Origin: Candidatus Polarisedimenticolia bacterium
GTDB lineage: Bacteria; Acidobacteriota; Polarisedimenticolia; Gp22-AA2
Direction: 5' to 3'
Length of the DNA stretch: 64,000 nucleotides
Assembly (NCBI GenBank): GCA_036001465.1
Contig: DASYUH010000040.1
Coordinates: 75,466 to 139,465 of the forward strand
The notes under the pieces were generated by a model. The model was not told the origin of the DNA. It saw nothing but the letters and a program-made list of their open reading frames with translations, and did no database searches. The translations under genes were made by a program, and so were the position numbers. Below, in pieces: positions 4,011-39,128 of this stretch (positions are counted from its first letter, which is position 1; each line of letters opens with the position of its first letter).

Positions 4011-4778
4011 TCACTCCTCCCCGGCCCCCGGCCGGGCGGCGGGCTCTCGCCCGAAGACGTGGGCCACGAGGATGCCGATGAGATACAGGACGATCATCGG
4101 GCCGGCGAACAGGCATTGGGTCACGACGTCGGGCGTCGGCGTGATCAAGGCGGCGACGATGAAGATGATCAGGACGGCGTATTTCAGATTGCGCCACAGG
4201 AACCCGGCGGTGATCAGCCTCAGCCGGGCGAGAAAGTAGATCACGGTCGGGAGCTCGAACACCAGGCCCATCCCGAGCACGATCTTGCTCTCGAAGCTGA
4301 ACAGGCTGCTGATGCGCAGCGCCGGCGTGAATCCCTCCGCCACGCCGAGGAGGAACCGACAGGCCGCCGGGAATCCCACGTAATAGCCGAACGCTCCGCC
4401 CAGCAGGAAGAAGAGCGTGGCGAACACCACGAACGGCAGGGCGTAGTGGCGTTCCCCCGGGTAGAGCCCCGGCCTGATGAAGGCCCAGACCTGGTACAGC
4501 ACGAACGGCGATGCGAGGAACAGCGCCACCAGGAAGGACACCTTCATGTACAGAAGGAACGGCTCGGCCACCTCGAGGAAGACCGGCTTTTGATCCCCCA
4601 GGAGCGGCCGGATGGGTGCCAGGAAAAAGCCCAGGATCTGCCGGGAATAGGCGAGCGCCAGGGCGAAGGCGACCGCGATCGCGACAACCGACCGCAGCAA
4701 CCGCTTCCGGAGCTCCTCCAGGTGCTCCAGGAAGCTCATGGTCGGCAGGTCAGGTGTGCTCGTCCCGCGCTTTGGCAT
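4011..4778 (-). CDS. tatC: Sec-independent protein translocase TatC
   Basis: This protein of about 255 residues has six predicted membrane segments and the signature cytoplasmic N-terminus SFLEHLEELRKRLLRS. The conserved periplasmic loop segment SPFVLYQVWAFIRPGLYP-GER and the Phe/Glu-containing loop before the third helix are present. TatC is the twin-arginine signal receptor of the Tat pathway. The start is either ATG 4778, overlapping the tatA 3' end by about 30 bp, or ATG 4739; neither has a strong ribosome-binding site. The tatA-tatC pair probably forms one transcript. Confidence 0.93.
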   Translation of the reverse strand: MPKRGTSTPDLPTMSFLEHLEELRKRLLRSVVAIAVAFALALAYSRQILGFFLAPIRPLLGDQKPVFLEVAEPFLLYMKVSFLVALFLASPFVLYQVWAFIRPGLYPGERHYALPFVVFATLFFLLGGAFGYYVGFPAACRFLLGVAEGFTPALRISSLFSFESKIVLGMGLVFELPTVIYFLARLRLITAGFLWRNLKYAVLIIFIVAALITPTPDVVTQCLFAGPMIVLYLIGILVAHVFGREPAARPGAGEE

Positions 4779-5022
4779 CGTCTGCCGGGGCCTCATCCGG
4801 CTTCGCGGACGGGTCGGTCGGAGGCTTGTCCGCGGGAGGCTTGAGCTCCGCCCGGGCCACCTCGGCGTCGAGCGTGTCGCGCATGTCGGTGGCCGCCTTG
4901 CGGAACTCCGCGATCCCCTTGCCGAGAGTGCGTCCCAGATCGGACAGCCGCCGGGGTCCAAAAATGAGGAGGGCGATGGCGAAGATGACCAGCAGTTCCG
5001 GGCCGCCAATCGAGCCGAACAT
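4750..5022 (-). CDS. tatA: Twin-arginine translocase subunit TatA/TatB
   Basis: This is a 90-residue protein with one N-terminal membrane helix (GGPELLVIFAIALLIFGPRR), the FGP hinge, and an amphipathic helix LSDLGRTLGKGIAEFRKA. A Pro/Lys/Asp-rich cytoplasmic tail follows. The Glu in the membrane helix and the spacing to the hinge fit either TatA or TatB; with one copy here it may serve both roles. The ATG at 5022 is preceded by GGGAGGG at about 8 bases. A longer upstream reading is not needed. tatC follows with a short overlap. Confidence 0.9.
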   Translation of the reverse strand: MFGSIGGPELLVIFAIALLIFGPRRLSDLGRTLGKGIAEFRKAATDMRDTLDAEVARAELKPPADKPPTDPSAKPDEAPADDAKARDEHT

Positions 5023-5188
5023 GCCGCATCCCTCCCGATCCGCCGGCACGACGGGGGTTGCGAGGCCGCTCCGGAGCCGCACGACGGAGCCGACATCTTA
5101 GCACCATCGTCAGCCCGGCGCCGGGGCGCGACACGCCACGGACGCTCCACCGGGGCAACGGAAATAAGTGCTCTATTTCCATCGTTTC

Positions 5189-5217
5189 TTTACACGGGCC
5201 GGATCGGGCACTATAAT
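5189..5217 (+). promoter_or_regulatory. Sigma70 promoter of the S41 protease gene
   Basis: TTTACA (5189-5194), a 17-bp spacer and a perfect TATAAT (5212-5217). The expected transcription start near 5224 leaves only about a dozen bases before the ATG at 5236, and no Shine-Dalgarno is visible, so the message may be almost leaderless. Confidence 0.8.
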
Positions 5218-5235
5218 TTGCCTACAGTGCCATTG

Positions 5236-6816
5236 ATGGAGACGCGGGTGCGCCGGAAAGCGGTTCTGGGAGGATTGGCTTTCATCATCGCCGGCGGGCT
5301 CGCCGGCGGGCTGCTCGGCGGCCGTGCCTCGACGGTGTCGGAGAGGACGGGCGAGCAGCTCTCCACCTACACCCACCTCCTCAGCATGGTCCAGACGCGC
5401 GCCGCCGACGCCGTCGATTCGCGCGTGGCGATCGAGGGATCGATCCGCGGCATGCTCCGGACCATGGATCCCCACTCCAATTACCTCGATCCCGACGACT
5501 ACAAGCACATGATCGAGGAGCAGCAGGGGAGCTTCTCGGGGCTCGGGATCGTGATCTCGAAGCCGTCCAATGACAAACCTCTCACCGTCATCTCCCCGCT
5601 CGAAGGGACCCCGGCATGGAACGCCGGCATTCGCGCCGGAGACATCATCTCCCAGATCGAGGGGGTGGATACCCTCGACATGACGATCGACGACGCGCTG
5701 CGCCGGTTGAAAGGCCCGAAGGGGACGCGCGTGACCATCACCGTGACCCGGCCGGGCGACCTGGAGGTCCTGCATTTCACGATCACCCGCGACGACATCC
5801 CCACGAACAGCATCCGCCAATCGTTCATGGTGAGGCCAGGCGTCGGCTACGTGAAGATCGAGAACTTCACCCGCACGACCGACAGGGAGCTCGAGGAGAG
5901 GGTGCGCGCGCTGCAGAGCCAGGGCCTGACGCGGCTCATCCTCGATCTGCGGCGCAATCCGGGAGGCCTGCTCGAGCAGGCGGTCCGGGTCGCCGATCGG
6001 TTCCTGCGGAAGGACCAGCTCATCGTGTACACGCACGGCCGCATCAGCGGTGCCGATCAGGAGTACAAGGCCACGGGTGCCGGCAACCCGATTAACCTGC
6101 CGCTGGTCGTGCTGGTCGACAAGTTCAGCGCCAGTGCCTCCGAGATCGTCGCCGGCGCGATCCAGGACCACGACCGCGGCCTCATCGTGGGTGAAACCAC
6201 CTGGGGCAAGGGGCTGGTGCAGACGGTCTACCCGCTCAGCCAGGACGCCGCGCTGGCCCTCACGACGGCGCGCTACTACACGCCGAGCGGGCGCCTCATC
6301 CAGCGCGACTACAACTCCCTCGAGGACTACCTGTCGCACGAGGAGAGCGACCAGGAGCTGATCAGCCTCTCGAAGGACATCCGGCGCACCGATGCGGGTC
6401 GGACCGTCTACGGCGGGGGGGGCATCCGTCCCGACGTCGTGGTGACCGATCCGACGCCGCCGTTCATCGACCAGCTCGAGCGCGCCCAGATTTTTTTCCA
6501 CTTCGCCGTGGACTTCAATTCCCGGCACAAGGGGACCCAGCGGGCCTTCGACGTGACGCCAGCGGTGATCGCGGAGTTTCAGGAGTTCCTGAAGGCCCGC
6601 AAGGTGAAGTGGTCGCCCGCCGACATCGAGGCGAACGGCGATAGGCTCAGGGGGGAGATCAAGGAAGCGATCGTCCTGGCGCTCTGGGGCCTGGAGGAGT
6701 CCTACAAGGTGCACGCCGAAATCGATCTCCAGCTCCTGAAGGCGCTGGATCTCTTTCCCCAGGCGCAGGAGCTGGCCGCTCTCGGCGGGTCCCCGCCGCC
6801 TGCCCGGGAGCACTGA
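5236..6816 (+). CDS. C-terminal processing peptidase, S41 family
   Basis: This 526-residue protein has an N-terminal membrane anchor or signal (about residues 8-30), then a PDZ domain (about 100-180; GLGIVI, GTPAWNAGIRAGDIISQIEG). The tail-specific protease domain carries SASASE at residues 298-303 and the general-base lysine K325 in ETTWGKG. S41 CTPases cut periplasmic proteins at their C-termini. About 150 extra C-terminal residues follow the usual GGGIRPDV end and look mostly helical. The ATG at 5236 (or GTG at 5227) follows the promoter at 5189-5217. Confidence 0.92.
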   Translation: METRVRRKAVLGGLAFIIAGGLAGGLLGGRASTVSERTGEQLSTYTHLLSMVQTRAADAVDSRVAIEGSIRGMLRTMDPHSNYLDPDDYKHMIEEQQGSFSGLGIVISKPSNDKPLTVISPLEGTPAWNAGIRAGDIISQIEGVDTLDMTIDDALRRLKGPKGTRVTITVTRPGDLEVLHFTITRDDIPTNSIRQSFMVRPGVGYVKIENFTRTTDRELEERVRALQSQGLTRLILDLRRNPGGLLEQAVRVADRFLRKDQLIVYTHGRISGADQEYKATGAGNPINLPLVVLVDKFSASASEIVAGAIQDHDRGLIVGETTWGKGLVQTVYPLSQDAALALTTARYYTPSGRLIQRDYNSLEDYLSHEESDQELISLSKDIRRTDAGRTVYGGGGIRPDVVVTDPTPPFIDQLERAQIFFHFAVDFNSRHKGTQRAFDVTPAVIAEFQEFLKARKVKWSPADIEANGDRLRGEIKEAIVLALWGLEESYKVHAEIDLQLLKALDLFPQAQELAALGGSPPPAREH

Positions 6817-36465: not shown

Positions 36466-36473
36466 CACGCGCG
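36466..36473. repeat. Left copy of the 8-bp IS target-site duplication
   Basis: CACGCGCG, repeated exactly at 39121-39128 on the other side of the element. An 8-bp duplication fits IS1-family insertion. Confidence 0.88.
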
Positions 36474-36497
36474 GGTAGTGGGCTAGGAGTGTGTTGC
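36474..36497 (+). repeat. Left terminal inverted repeat of the IS
   Basis: It starts GGTAGTGGGCTA and ends GTGTTGC. Thirteen bases inside it (36482-36494, GCTAGGAGTGTGT) also match the outer end of the MITE-like element at 59005-59017. Confidence 0.88.
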
Positions 36498-36502
36498 TGA
36501 AT

Positions 36503-36865
36503 CTAAATCGGTTTCTCTGGTCCCGGATCGGCGTTTGGATAGTAGGCGCGGATGGAAGCAAGGATCTGCTCACCGAGTCCGGATGCCACAAAGTGCGGTC
36601 GCGGGTTGCCTTGAAATAGCATGTCAAAGGTCAGGTCAGCCATGCGACCGTGGGATTCTAGAACGCCAACGACCATGCTCGCGTCGTCTGCTGTCGGGCT
36701 TTCTAGGTTTGCAAAAACGAAGAACTCCTCCGGGTTGTCTTTGAACCCACGAGCAAATACGGCCAGCCCAACCAACTTTCCCTGATACATCGGATCAAGC
36801 TCGCGAATGGCGGTCGCTGCCGCCCTCGCGTCCGGGACCTGGTAGATGAACGACTTCTCAGCCAC
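36503..36865 (-). CDS. IS cargo protein 2, unknown function
   Basis: This 120-residue soluble protein is encoded inside the IS element, 4 bp downstream of cargo gene 1 if the GTG at 36865 is used (GGCGGA upstream); a longer start at 36907 would overlap that gene. The fold looks alpha/beta, with segments MYQGKLVGLAVFARGFK and EEFFVFANLESP. No family is recognised and no catalytic motif is evident. Base composition is clearly lower in GC than the surrounding chromosome, supporting transfer with the element. It ends just inside the left terminal repeat. Confidence 0.7.
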   Translation of the reverse strand: MAEKSFIYQVPDARAAATAIRELDPMYQGKLVGLAVFARGFKDNPEEFFVFANLESPTADDASMVVGVLESHGRMADLTFDMLFQGNPRPHFVASGLGEQILASIRAYYPNADPGPEKPI

Positions 36866-36869
36866 GCGA

Positions 36870-37736
36870 CTATTCCGCCTTCGGTTCGGCCTTTGAGATC
36901 CGCTCAACCTTGCGAATGACCAGGGTGAGCCAATCCTTTAACTCGGCAACGCCATCGGCCGTTAGCTGGGCCGGCCATTGGAGAATTGCCTCTCCGTTGT
37001 CCAGGGCGAACACTTCTCGGCGGACTCCGCTCTTGGGCAGATCCTTCAGACCACTACCCTGCGTGCTCTGGCCGAGCGTCTCGGCTTCTACCTTCACGAG
37101 TTGATTCACCGGAATCCCCGCAGGAGTCCCTTCAACGAAAGCATGGGTCCGGTCGTCGCTGAAACCCTTTATTTTCAATGGTGTCTGAAACTGGAAAATC
37201 CCTTGAGATTCCCACTGAACAGTGTCACCGACGACCAATTTATTGCCAGACCCGTTCCCGTCGCGAGGAGTATACGGGGAATCTTGGAGTTTGGCAACAG
37301 CCATTGTTTCACGAAACGCTTTGATAAGTTGCCGTGCTCCAGGGTCAGAAAAGGCCTTCTTAGTGACAAGATAGGCCCGAAGGGCATCATCTGACGCATT
37401 TTGGTGGGTCTTGTAGAGTTCCTGAAACAGTTCCGGCTCTTTGGCGGCAGCTTGCATCGCCTCTTGATACTCCTGCGTGTCCGCTTTATAGTTGACGATC
37501 TGAACGGCACGCTGTGACAGACGCATCCCGTCCGTGGTTTGTTCCAAGAGCCCGTACTTCTTCATAGCCGAAACCTTGGTTCGCACCGGTCCACTGAGGC
37601 TCTTGTACCCCCACGCCTTGGCGATCACGTCTGGCGAAACAGAGGTTCGCTGCTCAATCTTCCAGAGTCGTCGCGCCAGGTCTATGGCCTCGGTCAAGCC
37701 CGTGGCCGGGTAGTTCGGACTTCGCTGCTTACCCAT
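36870..37736 (-). CDS. IS cargo protein 1, winged-helix-like N-terminus, unknown function
   Basis: This is a 288-residue soluble protein. Residues about 12-65 (AIDLARRLWKIEQRTSVSP, then AKAWGYKSLSGPVRTKVSAM and KKYGLLE) look like a winged-helix DNA-binding domain. The middle (95-150) is helical, and the C-terminal half is beta-rich with LTADGVAELKDWL near the end. It could regulate the element or protect its host; that is conjecture. GAAAGGAGG precedes the ATG. A near-consensus promoter lies at 37757-37785. GC is lower than in flanking genes. Confidence 0.75.
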   Translation of the reverse strand: MGKQRSPNYPATGLTEAIDLARRLWKIEQRTSVSPDVIAKAWGYKSLSGPVRTKVSAMKKYGLLEQTTDGMRLSQRAVQIVNYKADTQEYQEAMQAAAKEPELFQELYKTHQNASDDALRAYLVTKKAFSDPGARQLIKAFRETMAVAKLQDSPYTPRDGNGSGNKLVVGDTVQWESQGIFQFQTPLKIKGFSDDRTHAFVEGTPAGIPVNQLVKVEAETLGQSTQGSGLKDLPKSGVRREVFALDNGEAILQWPAQLTADGVAELKDWLTLVIRKVERISKAEPKAE

Positions 37737-37756
37737 GCTTGCCTCCTTTCCGGCAG

Positions 37757-37785
37757 AGCATAGGATAACCCAGGCAGCTTGTCAA
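37757..37785 (-). promoter_or_regulatory. Sigma70 promoter of the IS cargo genes
   Basis: Minus strand perfect TTGACA (37785-37780), 17-bp spacer, TATGCT (37762-37757), about 20 bp from the cargo gene 1 start. Confidence 0.8.
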
Positions 37786-37851
37786 TAGGCAACAAGGCAA
37801 TATTACGAGTCTGTCAGCCTTGGATATGTGCGAATTAGCCTTTAATTATCC

Positions 37852-37880
37852 TTGACAGGGCGATCTGGTGGGTATATAAG
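37852..37880 (+). promoter_or_regulatory. Sigma70 promoter of the structured leader and transposase
   Basis: Perfect TTGACA (37852-37857), 17-bp spacer, TATAAG (37875-37880). It reads toward the transposase, whose ATG is 268 bp downstream. It is back to back with the cargo promoter, separated by 66 bp of AT-rich DNA. Confidence 0.82.
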
Positions 37881-37886
37881 GATCCG

Positions 37887-38148
37887 GTCACTGGAGGTTG
37901 CCCGATGAGGAGAGTCACAGTCCCCCGCGTTCATAGTGCCCGCCGATGCGGGGGGCGACACACGCGAAGGCCCATCCCTGTGGCTCCTGCCGGGGCAGAG
38001 GGATGGGCCGTGGTGGGCTTCTCAATTCAATGCCCGGTCAGCCGCGTCAACGGCTGGCCGGGCCGATCTAAACCACGCGGGGTAAGCCGCATGGCCCAGA
38101 CACAGAGCCATTATCGGCCTTCCCCGCCTCTTCTGCAAGGGGCGGACT
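37887..38148 (+). ncRNA. Structured RNA leader upstream of the IS transposase
   Basis: From the expected transcript start to the transposase ATG I find five hairpins by eye: 37922-37954 (7-bp stem), 37969-38009 (perfect 11-bp stem GGCCCATCCCT/AGGGATGGGCC with an inner CTGC/GCAG hairpin), 38033-38062 (12-bp stem), 38073-38094 (7 bp plus a C-A mismatch) and 38124-38145 (9-bp stem, CTGC loop). The last one pairs the AAGGGG Shine-Dalgarno of the transposase. I recognise no known RNA family. It could be a translational control leader or an RNA with its own role in transposition. Confidence 0.55.
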
Positions 38149-39111
38149 ATGACCTGCCTGAAATGTCAGCACGGCCGGGCCAAGCGTTTTGGCTTCGCTA
38201 AGAACCGCATCCAGCGTTACCGTTGCCACACCTGCCGCGTCACGTTCCTTGAGCCTCGGGCGAAGCCGCTCGGGAACCACTACACCGACATGGAGAAGGC
38301 GATCCAGGTAGTTAGCTTTATCACCGAGGGGATGAGCATCCGGGCCACCAGTCGCCTGACCGGGCTCCACAAAAACACGGTCATGGCGATCCTCCTGACC
38401 ATCGGCCGGAACTGCGAACGCCTTCTGGACGTGAAGATGACCGGCGTCCGGGCGCGGTTCGTGCAGGCGGATGAGGCATGGTCCTACATCCATACAAAGG
38501 GAAAGCGCGTCCGCCGGACCGACCCTGCCGAGTGGGGCGACTGCTACGTGTGGGCGGCGCTGGATTCCGAGACGAAGGCGATCCTCTCGTACCACGTCGG
38601 GAAGCGTGACAGCGTGTCAGCCTACGAATTCATCGAAGGGCTGCGCCGCCGCGTTGACGGGATTTTCCAGCTCAGCACGGACGGCTTGAACTGGTACGTT
38701 CCTGCCGTGGAGGAGCATTTCGGCGCGGACGTTCATTATGGTCAGCAGACGAAAGTGTTCGGCCAGCCTGAGACGCCGAGCGCTCCCGAGTGGTACAAGC
38801 CAGCGCCGAAGGTGATCGGGGTGTTCCGAAGAATCTTCTCAGGCGACCCTGACCCGTCCCGAATCTCCACCTGCCATATCGAGCGGGCGAATGGCATTCT
38901 GCGCCAGCACATCCGCCGGGTGGGCCGACTCGTGAACGCCTTCAGCAAGACACTGGAGGGCTTCAAGGCGGCCGTGGCACTCTTCGCGGCGTGGTATAAC
39001 CTGTGCCTCGTTCACTCCGCGACCCGAGTCACGCCGGGCATGGGAAGCGGAATCACGGATCACGTTTGGACGGTGCGCGAGCTACTTGAGGCGGCGGCAA
39101 CACTCACTTAG
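38149..39111 (+). CDS. IS1-family DDE transposase (single-ORF type)
   Basis: This 320-residue protein starts with a zinc finger (CxxC at 3/6 and 26/29), then a helix-turn-helix (GMSIRATSRLTGLHKNTV). The DDE catalytic core has D108 (QADEAW), D178 (STDGLNW) and E245 (CHIERANG). IS1 itself needs a frameshift between insA and insB; here both parts are one frame. The Shine-Dalgarno AAGGGG eight bases upstream lies in a 9-bp hairpin. The stop codon is inside the right terminal repeat. No lesions are seen, so it is probably active. Confidence 0.92.
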   Translation: MTCLKCQHGRAKRFGFAKNRIQRYRCHTCRVTFLEPRAKPLGNHYTDMEKAIQVVSFITEGMSIRATSRLTGLHKNTVMAILLTIGRNCERLLDVKMTGVRARFVQADEAWSYIHTKGKRVRRTDPAEWGDCYVWAALDSETKAILSYHVGKRDSVSAYEFIEGLRRRVDGIFQLSTDGLNWYVPAVEEHFGADVHYGQQTKVFGQPETPSAPEWYKPAPKVIGVFRRIFSGDPDPSRISTCHIERANGILRQHIRRVGRLVNAFSKTLEGFKAAVALFAAWYNLCLVHSATRVTPGMGSGITDHVWTVRELLEAAATLT

Positions 39112-39120
39112 CCCACTACC
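39097..39120 (-). repeat. Right terminal inverted repeat of the IS
   Basis: Read on the minus strand it starts GGTAGTGGGCTA and ends GTGTTGC, like the left end, with about three internal differences. It contains the transposase stop codon. Confidence 0.88.
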
Positions 39121-39128
39121 CACGCGCG
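39121..39128. repeat. Right copy of the 8-bp IS target-site duplication
   Basis: CACGCGCG, identical to 36466-36473. Confidence 0.88.

Follow-up and report, generated by a model that had tools for sequence, protein, structure and literature searches.

An IS1-related element with two cargo genes and its cargo-carrying relatives

The element and its genes

The window (the whole 64-kb stretch of DNA that was analysed) holds a self-contained element, with the following features.

36466–36473, no strand: left-hand copy of the duplicated 8-bp target site, CACGCGCG, read in the sequence and independently recovered by script
36474–39120: complete element, 2647 bp, with ends, duplication, transposase and two minus-strand cargo genes
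36474–36497, plus strand: left terminal inverted repeat, containing an exact GGTAGTGGGCTA, 21/24 against the right end
36503–36865, minus strand: cargo B, 120 aa from a GTG at 36865, no family match
36870–37736, minus strand: cargo A, 288 aa, two predicted winged-helix-type domains at about residues 8–150
37757–37785, minus strand: promoter-like site for cargo A and B, TTGACA-17-TATGCT, 10/12, a consensus match only
37852–37880, plus strand: promoter-like site facing the transposase, with TTGACA-17-TATAAG scored by eye as 11/12; its final G keeps it off the scan's list
38149–39111, plus strand: single-frame IS1-type DDE transposase, 320 aa, with an N-terminal zinc-finger motif
39097–39120, minus strand: right terminal inverted repeat, from the sequence and the ranked search
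39121–39128, no strand: right copy of the 8-bp duplication, CACGCGCG, likewise recovered by script

The left end (GGTAGTGGGCTAGGAGTGTGTTGC) and the reverse complement of the right end (GGTAGTGGGCTAAGTGAGTGTTGC) are identical at 21 of 24 positions, including all of the first 12, and the window contains exactly two copies of GGTAGTGGGCTA, one at each of these ends. When inverted repeats with duplications were searched over 16 kb around the transposase, the pair at 36474–39120 ranked clearly first. In two genomes of the same genus (G287 and G208) the site is empty, with flanks about 51 and about 13 bp apart and the element absent. Together with the exact duplication, these observations uphold the complete IS1-type element of the original prediction. 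The host genome has only one intact copy; it also contains a decayed element that encodes a protein with a Fic motif. A composite transposon was ruled out, since there is a single transposase with a single pair of ends and no two flanking IS copies. An Rfam search of the element (36474–39120) gave no match.

The single-frame transposase that had been proposed is confirmed by Pfam DDE_Tnp_IS1 (27.6 bits, above the gathering cut-off of 24.1) and by a frame of 320 codons whose D108, D178 and E245 are invariant among relatives in our sequence comparison. The NCBIfam IS1 model matches it at 1.8e-25 with 90 bits, below the 100-bit equivalog cut-off, and on this score we class the protein as related to IS1 but outside NCBI's core IS1. 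The InsA/InsB two-frame layout with its programmed frameshift is absent. Single-frame IS1 members are known, and the single frame therefore excludes only the classical two-ORF IS1 subgroup.

Cargo B was listed as an ORF of 134 aa (36503–36907, TTG start at 36907), but translation more likely begins at the GTG at 36865, which lies four bases past the stop of A. AAAGGAGG precedes the ATG of cargo A, and the two divergent promoter-like sites place their -35 boxes about 67 bp apart; the near-consensus promoter announced for the minus-strand genes is indeed there, as far as a consensus match goes. Both proteins are as unrecognisable as first reported: Pfam, NCBIfam, PHROGs and PADLOC returned nothing above chance for either, known toxin and antitoxin families included. 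B is an unclassified small protein that probably shares the message of A. For A, a winged-helix-like N-terminus had been noticed, and the predicted model (pLDDT 78, above 90 across most of the N-terminal 150 residues) contains two such domains, followed by a predicted variable linker/barrel segment with a VQWES motif and a C-terminal beta hairpin and helix. By its model, cargo A is a probable DNA binder with a pair of winged-helix-type domains.

A family in which cargo is the rule

We delimited 137 distinct relatives of the element across eight phyla, and also on plasmids and viral contigs. They measure 1897–7450 bp (median 3293); 107 of them have GGTAGTG on both ends and 113 an exact duplication of 8–9 bp, the 24 that lack one being mostly those on viral contigs. 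Every one of the 137 contains non-transposase DNA, at least 906 bp and with a median of 2348 bp, and in 131 a cargo ORF of at least 110 aa was called besides the transposase, K and S (two accessory families described below), by a simple script some of whose calls are spurious. Boundaries accepted with a duplication were found in 0 of 103 reversed decoy loci; calls on repeats alone, at 16/20, can err (9/103 decoys accepted). Two relatives, in Sphingomonas (L263) and Methylocapsa (L079), have no delimitable boundaries, and a RES/Xre toxin-antitoxin pair near an Acidiphilium transposase was rejected as cargo, the delimited element stopping just past the transposase with the pair outside. Transposase and ends are constant, whereas cargo varies between copies, with different genes in nearly every one. 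On this sequence evidence, carrying cargo is the rule in the transposase clade, which is a widespread and apparently undescribed branch of IS1. The reading as a transposon is therefore right, and stronger than first claimed.

The gene content of these elements points to two layers, small accessory K or S genes and, above them, exchangeable cargo. K occurs in 87 and S in 20 of the 137 elements, almost mutually exclusively, and the element in the window has neither. On the transposase tree, the states K, S and none require 11 changes against a shuffled mean of 45.3, from which we conclude that K and S are co-inherited with the transposase. The predicted structure of S has a pLDDT of 91.6, and neither Foldseek nor a sequence search against the PDB found a match worth naming. 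The two families offer a way to ask how an IS1-type transposase functions without a zinc finger of its own.

Cargo A behaves differently from K and S: its 12 occurrences among the 137 elements (11 besides the window's) require 10 changes against a shuffled mean of 11.7, a near-random scatter that indicates swapping. The hosts are Acidobacteriota, Alphaproteobacteria, Desulfobacterota, Myxococcota and viral contigs. The expectation that in various hosts the cargo would again neighbour an IS1-type transposase with GGTAGTG ends therefore holds for A and fails for B, which is absent from all other delimited elements and has no convincing homologue among plasmids and 396 genomes of the phylum (best hit 5e-4, 23% identity, partial). 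Nor is a conserved cargo pair supported, as no partner gene of A is constant across its 12 elements. That the cargo might reside outside such elements proved true in part: in the 396-genome sample, nine genomes have homologues of A, inside such elements in three, elsewhere in five, and in one adjoining a K gene in an apparently decayed element. A profile search of viral contigs for A gave no confirmed match.

Exchangeable cargo, as annotated by family models, is enriched in toxin-antitoxin and defence-type genes relative to flanking genes. Among 260 cargo ORFs we found HTH_3 (22), Peptidase_M78 (14), Panacea (6) and ClpP-like (6) proteins, along with DNA methylases, TIR and others; Gp49/HigB-like proteins also occur in sister elements. 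PADLOC matched RmrA in about nine (best 3e-191) and PD-Lambda-2_B in ten, and further capP, capH, ThsB and MTase_II. HTH_3, M78, RmrA and PD-Lambda-2_B are not among the leading families of 130 flanking ORFs, in which 44 PADLOC families matched, versus 226 and 297 in the cargo comparison. These are counts per family, not shares of elements.

What the element and its cargo may do

Our preferred reading, which we consider very probable, is that the window holds a member of a broad IS1-related clade of self-contained units, each made of a transposase, GGTAGTG-type repeats and frequently swapped passengers among which defence and addiction genes are favoured, with A and B as the cargo of this copy. 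The transposase would bind both ends and move all the DNA between them, and any captured gene would therefore turn into cargo. Cargo would often be exchanged between copies, and protective or addictive genes (toxin-antitoxin, restriction and other defence modules) would be favoured because they aid the persistence of the element. Neither A nor B is matched by Pfam, NCBIfam or PADLOC, so any defence or addiction role is read for them from the other cargo of the family. Cargo A, which would be transcribed divergently from the transposase, most likely has a stand-alone role in defence or regulation, or else represses the promoter region that the two genes share.

A role of A as a stand-alone factor against phages or of restriction type, resembling the part of FokI or BrxA that recognises DNA, is a serious possibility, though one we would stop short of calling probable. 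The best structural matches of its model are the FokI recognition domains (Z 8.4, 147–149 residues), N.BspD6I (about 145 residues) and BrxA (Z 7.5, 143 residues), and the family cargo is rich in defence genes; however, these Z values are near background, chance matches of common folds reaching 7–8, no Foldseek match has an E below 0.001, A has no nuclease domain and PADLOC does not match it. Among its relatives, one runs on into a nucleoside-deoxyribosyltransferase-like domain and another adjoins, on a plasmid from Tistrella, a large restriction gene of methyltransferase-like type (by eye), both of which would fit such a role.

A broader proposal strikes us as doubtful: that this cross-phylum IS1-derived clade is a dedicated defence and addiction vehicle whose transposase lacks a zinc finger in most lineages, that separate K or S proteins, previously unrecognised, are essential for transposition (for example in end binding or regulation), and that A represents a new family, defensive or regulatory, disseminated by the clade.

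A main role of A in regulating transposition, as a winged-helix repressor acting on the promoter region it shares with the transposase, is unlikely. The predicted DNA-binding domains and the closely spaced divergent promoter-like sites would suit this, as would the divergence of A from the transposase in 9 of its 12 elements, but that orientation is ordinary (taking all cargo together, 61 elements have a divergent gene nearest upstream and 49 a codirectional one), and we rejected a special preference of A for it. Moreover, A is found outside elements in other genomes, and 91% of the family lacks it, so that it is not a needed regulator.

We find it less likely still that A and B form a toxin-antitoxin pair that stabilises the element through addiction. 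Their operon-like spacing and promoter-like site, the RmrA-type antitoxins, Gp49/HigB-like and Panacea proteins of sister elements and the Fic-motif protein of the decayed element are all compatible with it; yet 11 other elements have A but neither B nor a consistent partner gene, B has no homologue, and neither protein matches known toxins or antitoxins. Finally, an ordinary IS1 that once captured two neighbouring genes, with no broader pattern, is highly improbable: the single intact copy, the uniqueness of B and the cargo-free state of distant IS1 elements would fit, but the extra DNA of all 137 relatives contradicts it, A recurs in 11 other elements, and 137 boundaries would have to be wrong, contrary to the decoy control.

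Universal cargo in the clade we favour would blur the boundary between insertion sequence and transposon, and would make this broad IS1 relative a compact vehicle with easily drawn limits, one that ferries toxin-antitoxin and defence genes among phyla, plasmids and viral contigs. Because its ends are so regular (GGTAGTG and an 8–9-bp duplication), new small defence modules could be sought in this family, and much of its cargo, A and B of the window included, matches no known family.

Comparison with known systems

Textbooks present IS1 as the minimal insertion sequence, devoid of cargo. The element in the window has the 8–9-bp target duplication and GGnnnTG-type inverted repeats of the IS1 family, but not its compact, passenger-free size, as it spans 2647 bp with two cargo ORFs and all 137 relatives exceed 1.89 kb. 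Distant IS1s of 858–1225 bp, from Acaryochloris, Leptolyngbya and Deinococcus, have GGTAGT-type ends and no cargo. Single-ORF members of the family (for instance in Acaryochloris and Leptolyngbya) share the IS1-type DDE transposase, these ends and mostly 8-bp duplications with our clade, but are cargo-free and 0.9–1.2 kb long, whereas the clade spans 1.9–7.5 kb, always with cargo and often with K or S. One IS1 subgroup in ISfinder, ISMhu11, reaches about 4.6 kb, and IS elements with passenger genes, for instance within IS1595, are termed transporter IS (tIS). The likeness to tIS lies in an IS-type transposase and ends with genes dispensable for transposition, and in its anatomy and cargo variation the window element has just this, one transposase and IS-type ends with passengers between. 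Cargo in 137 of 137 elements and the K/S layer would exceed an occasional passenger. A search of the open literature on ISMhu11, on tIS within IS1 and on cargo-carrying IS1 in Acidobacteria found nothing, though a prior description may exist.

RosmerTA is among the toxin-antitoxin defence systems that contain an ImmA protease (PMC10440598). The strong matches of about nine cargo proteins to RmrA antitoxin models recall it, a likeness limited to sister elements, as A and B of the window match no such model. A parallel to systematic, exchangeable and defence-rich cargo within transposon ends is offered by Tn7-like transposons, 96% of which carry cargo enriched for defence and toxin-antitoxin genes (PMC8649781). 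The difference lies in the machinery: Tn7 relies on several proteins, while the clade described here has one IS1-type transposase, makes 8–9-bp duplications and is mostly 2–5 kb in size.

The element and its insertion site

Judged by its sequence, the IS1-type transposon of the window is a bounded unit with a duplicated target, and it belongs to a clade that keeps its transposase and ends while exchanging the genes in between. The features concerned are:

36474-39120: the transposon, 2647 bp
36503-36865, minus strand: cargo gene B, 120 aa from the likely GTG start
36870-37736, minus strand: cargo gene A, 288 aa
37969-38009: hairpin ahead of the transposase

The original prediction had placed the transposon exactly, and the imperfect 24-bp inverted repeats and exact duplication it described are indeed there: the ends, GGTAGTGGGCTAGGAGTGTGTTGC and, read from the opposite side, GGTAGTGGGCTAAGTGAGTGTTGC, are identical at 21 of 24 positions, CACGCGCG immediately flanks both, and exact occurrences of GGTAGTGGGCTA in the 64-kb window are confined to the two element ends. 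By eye, the translation of the gene to its left reads as elongation factor P and that of the gene to its right as NAD synthase; in two genomes of the same genus (G287 and G208) the matching flanks lie ~51 and 13 bp apart, without the element. This is the only full copy in its genome. On the same contig, ~30 kb upstream of the window, positions 4316-6047 of locus L276 (G000:C40:38000-50000) appear to be a decayed second element: part of a transposase is left there, together with a gene of the small accessory family K and an ORF whose product has the Fic motif HPFSDGNGR.

The transposase, predicted to be a single-frame IS1-type DDE enzyme, is encoded by an open frame of 320 aa, with D108, D178 and E245 as invariant acidic residues in an alignment of nine relatives. 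The Pfam IS1 model exceeds its cut-off, and the NCBI IS1 model reaches 1.8e-25, yet stays under its curated cut-off. The strong hairpin (GGCCCATCCCTGTG...CAGAGGGATGGGCC), which lies in the long leader ahead of the transposase and has no T run, could have an effect on transposase expression. The two minus-strand genes were also correctly foreseen: A and B form one operon, with a promoter-like site and then a strong ribosome-binding sequence upstream of A, and B most likely starts at a GTG four bases past the A stop codon. Both proteins proved as unrecognisable as anticipated, without a match above chance in Pfam, NCBIfam, PHROGs or PADLOC.

The element family and its cargo

Transposase relatives occur in 71 of 396 same-phylum genomes, and scripts exploiting the regular element ends delimited 33 elements in this sample (the window's counted), nearly all with 8-9-bp duplications. 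Scanning plasmids as well as genome and viral contigs raised the number to 137 distinct elements, which span eight phylum-level groups by record titles. Besides Acidobacteria, the hosts named are Verrucomicrobia, Alphaproteobacteria (including plasmids of Mesorhizobium loti, Hoeflea and Acidiphilium), Desulfobacterota, other deltaproteobacteria, Nitrospira, Pirellulales, Acidimicrobiia and Myxococcales. The shortest element measures 1897 bp and the longest 7450 bp, with a median of 3293 bp (n=137); 113 elements have exact duplications, 107 carry GGTAGTG at both ends, and every one holds at least 906 bp of non-transposase DNA. When 103 reversed loci were used as a control, none was accepted with a duplication and nine passed by repeats alone, so that repeat-only members warrant some caution.

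Many copies on IMG/VR contigs (e.g. L175, L193, L209, L219, L238) have near-perfect inverted repeats without the target duplication, in contrast to chromosomal copies; this may reflect rearrangement, the assembly, or insertion with another outcome. In L197, also on an IMG/VR contig, a K gene accompanies an XRE-M78 protein in the cargo, and the left 20 nt of this element are identical to the left end of the window element, although the transposases are only ~38% identical. A 542-bp internally deleted derivative (L278 in G055, 5924-6465), with inverted repeats and the duplication AAGAATAA, retains a K gene and a transposase remnant and resembles a non-autonomous copy.

We compared 260 cargo ORFs with 130 flanking ORFs, called identically and counted per family. 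The Pfam matches of the cargo are led by HTH_3 (22), IrrE/ImmA-type peptidase M78 (14), Panacea (6) and ClpP-like proteases (6), alongside several DNA methyltransferases, DUF5343, TIR, AAA/AbiEii-like, Schlafen AlbA and proteasome-like domains. PADLOC recovered RmrA (~9 proteins, up to 3e-191) and PD-Lambda-2_B (ten), as well as RmrT, capP/capH, mad2/mad8, ThsB and methyltransferases; RmrA and RmrT are the proteins of RosmerTA, an anti-phage toxin-antitoxin system (PMC10440598). The cargo's leading Pfam and PADLOC families are not among the leading families of the flanking ORFs, in which 44 PADLOC families were matched versus 226 and 297 in two cargo sets. The transposase would act at both ends and move the whole unit, and cargo would persist where useful to the element or the host, which may account for addiction and defence genes being over-represented.

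The accessory proteins K and S

K proteins are small and basic and share the motif GGLKGGKARA...RKEIAKKAAEARW; annotated 'histone H1' in M. loti, K is present in 87/137 elements, near the left end and on the transposase strand in 70 of 94 gene calls. S (~100 residues, unrelated to K) is found in 20/137, and the two co-occur in 2 elements versus 12.7 expected. Neither has a Pfam family, and the confident S model (pLDDT 91.6) has no clear match in the PDB. K or S accompanies 93 of 107 transposases without an N-terminal zinc-finger motif and 12 of 30 with it (Fisher p ~7e-7, optimistic as the sequences are related, the motif being scored by pattern). Mapped onto the tree of transposases, the K/S/none label takes 11 changes versus 45.3 in shuffles, and by our own count from listed matches 38 of the 53 K-bearing genomes in the 396-genome sample also have the transposase (9.5 expected). 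The window element has neither K nor S. P63C-type cargo proteins of three loci (L056, L062, L047) cluster with the K family via a K-like motif, suggesting that K may be a module able to fuse to cargo.

Cargo A and known relatives

The expected recurrence of the cargo beside such transposases stood in part. By profile search A is present in 12/137 elements, but we found no constant neighbour gene among them, and of nine genomes with A homologues in the unbiased 396-genome sample only three have them within elements; five carry them elsewhere, and in G049 the homologue adjoins a K gene with the transposase absent, apparently a decayed element. One homologue outside elements (G289) runs on into a nucleoside-deoxyribosyltransferase-like domain. 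On the tree of transposases A takes 10 changes versus 11.7 in shuffles, close enough to indicate that it was gained repeatedly and does not belong to the element core.

In the model of A the N-terminal 150 residues are confident (pLDDT mostly >90) and the linker is weak. Foldseek returned nothing at E <0.001; a second structural aligner matched these N-terminal residues to FokI (Z 8.4, 147-149 residues), N.BspD6I and BrxA of BREX (Z 7.5, 143 residues), in each case to the DNA-recognition domain, all barely above the chance level for common folds. Our reading is that A is probably a DNA-binding protein that has two domains of the winged-helix type. That it serves as a stand-alone DNA-binding defence factor is a tentative reading, and that it regulates transposition is rather doubtful. 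It is less likely still that A and B, although one operon, are a toxin-antitoxin pair, and we place most weight on a stand-alone defence or regulatory role of A.

Distant IS1 relatives from cyanobacterial and Deinococcus plasmids share similar ends and, mostly, 8-bp duplications with the family, but at 858-1225 bp they are too short for cargo. ISfinder has an ISMhu11 subgroup of IS1 with sizes up to 4.6 kb; our search of the open literature found nothing on ISMhu11. Insertion-sequence transposases with passenger genes are already known under the established concept of tIS; what appears to be undescribed is the systematic, defence-rich cargo together with the K/S layer.
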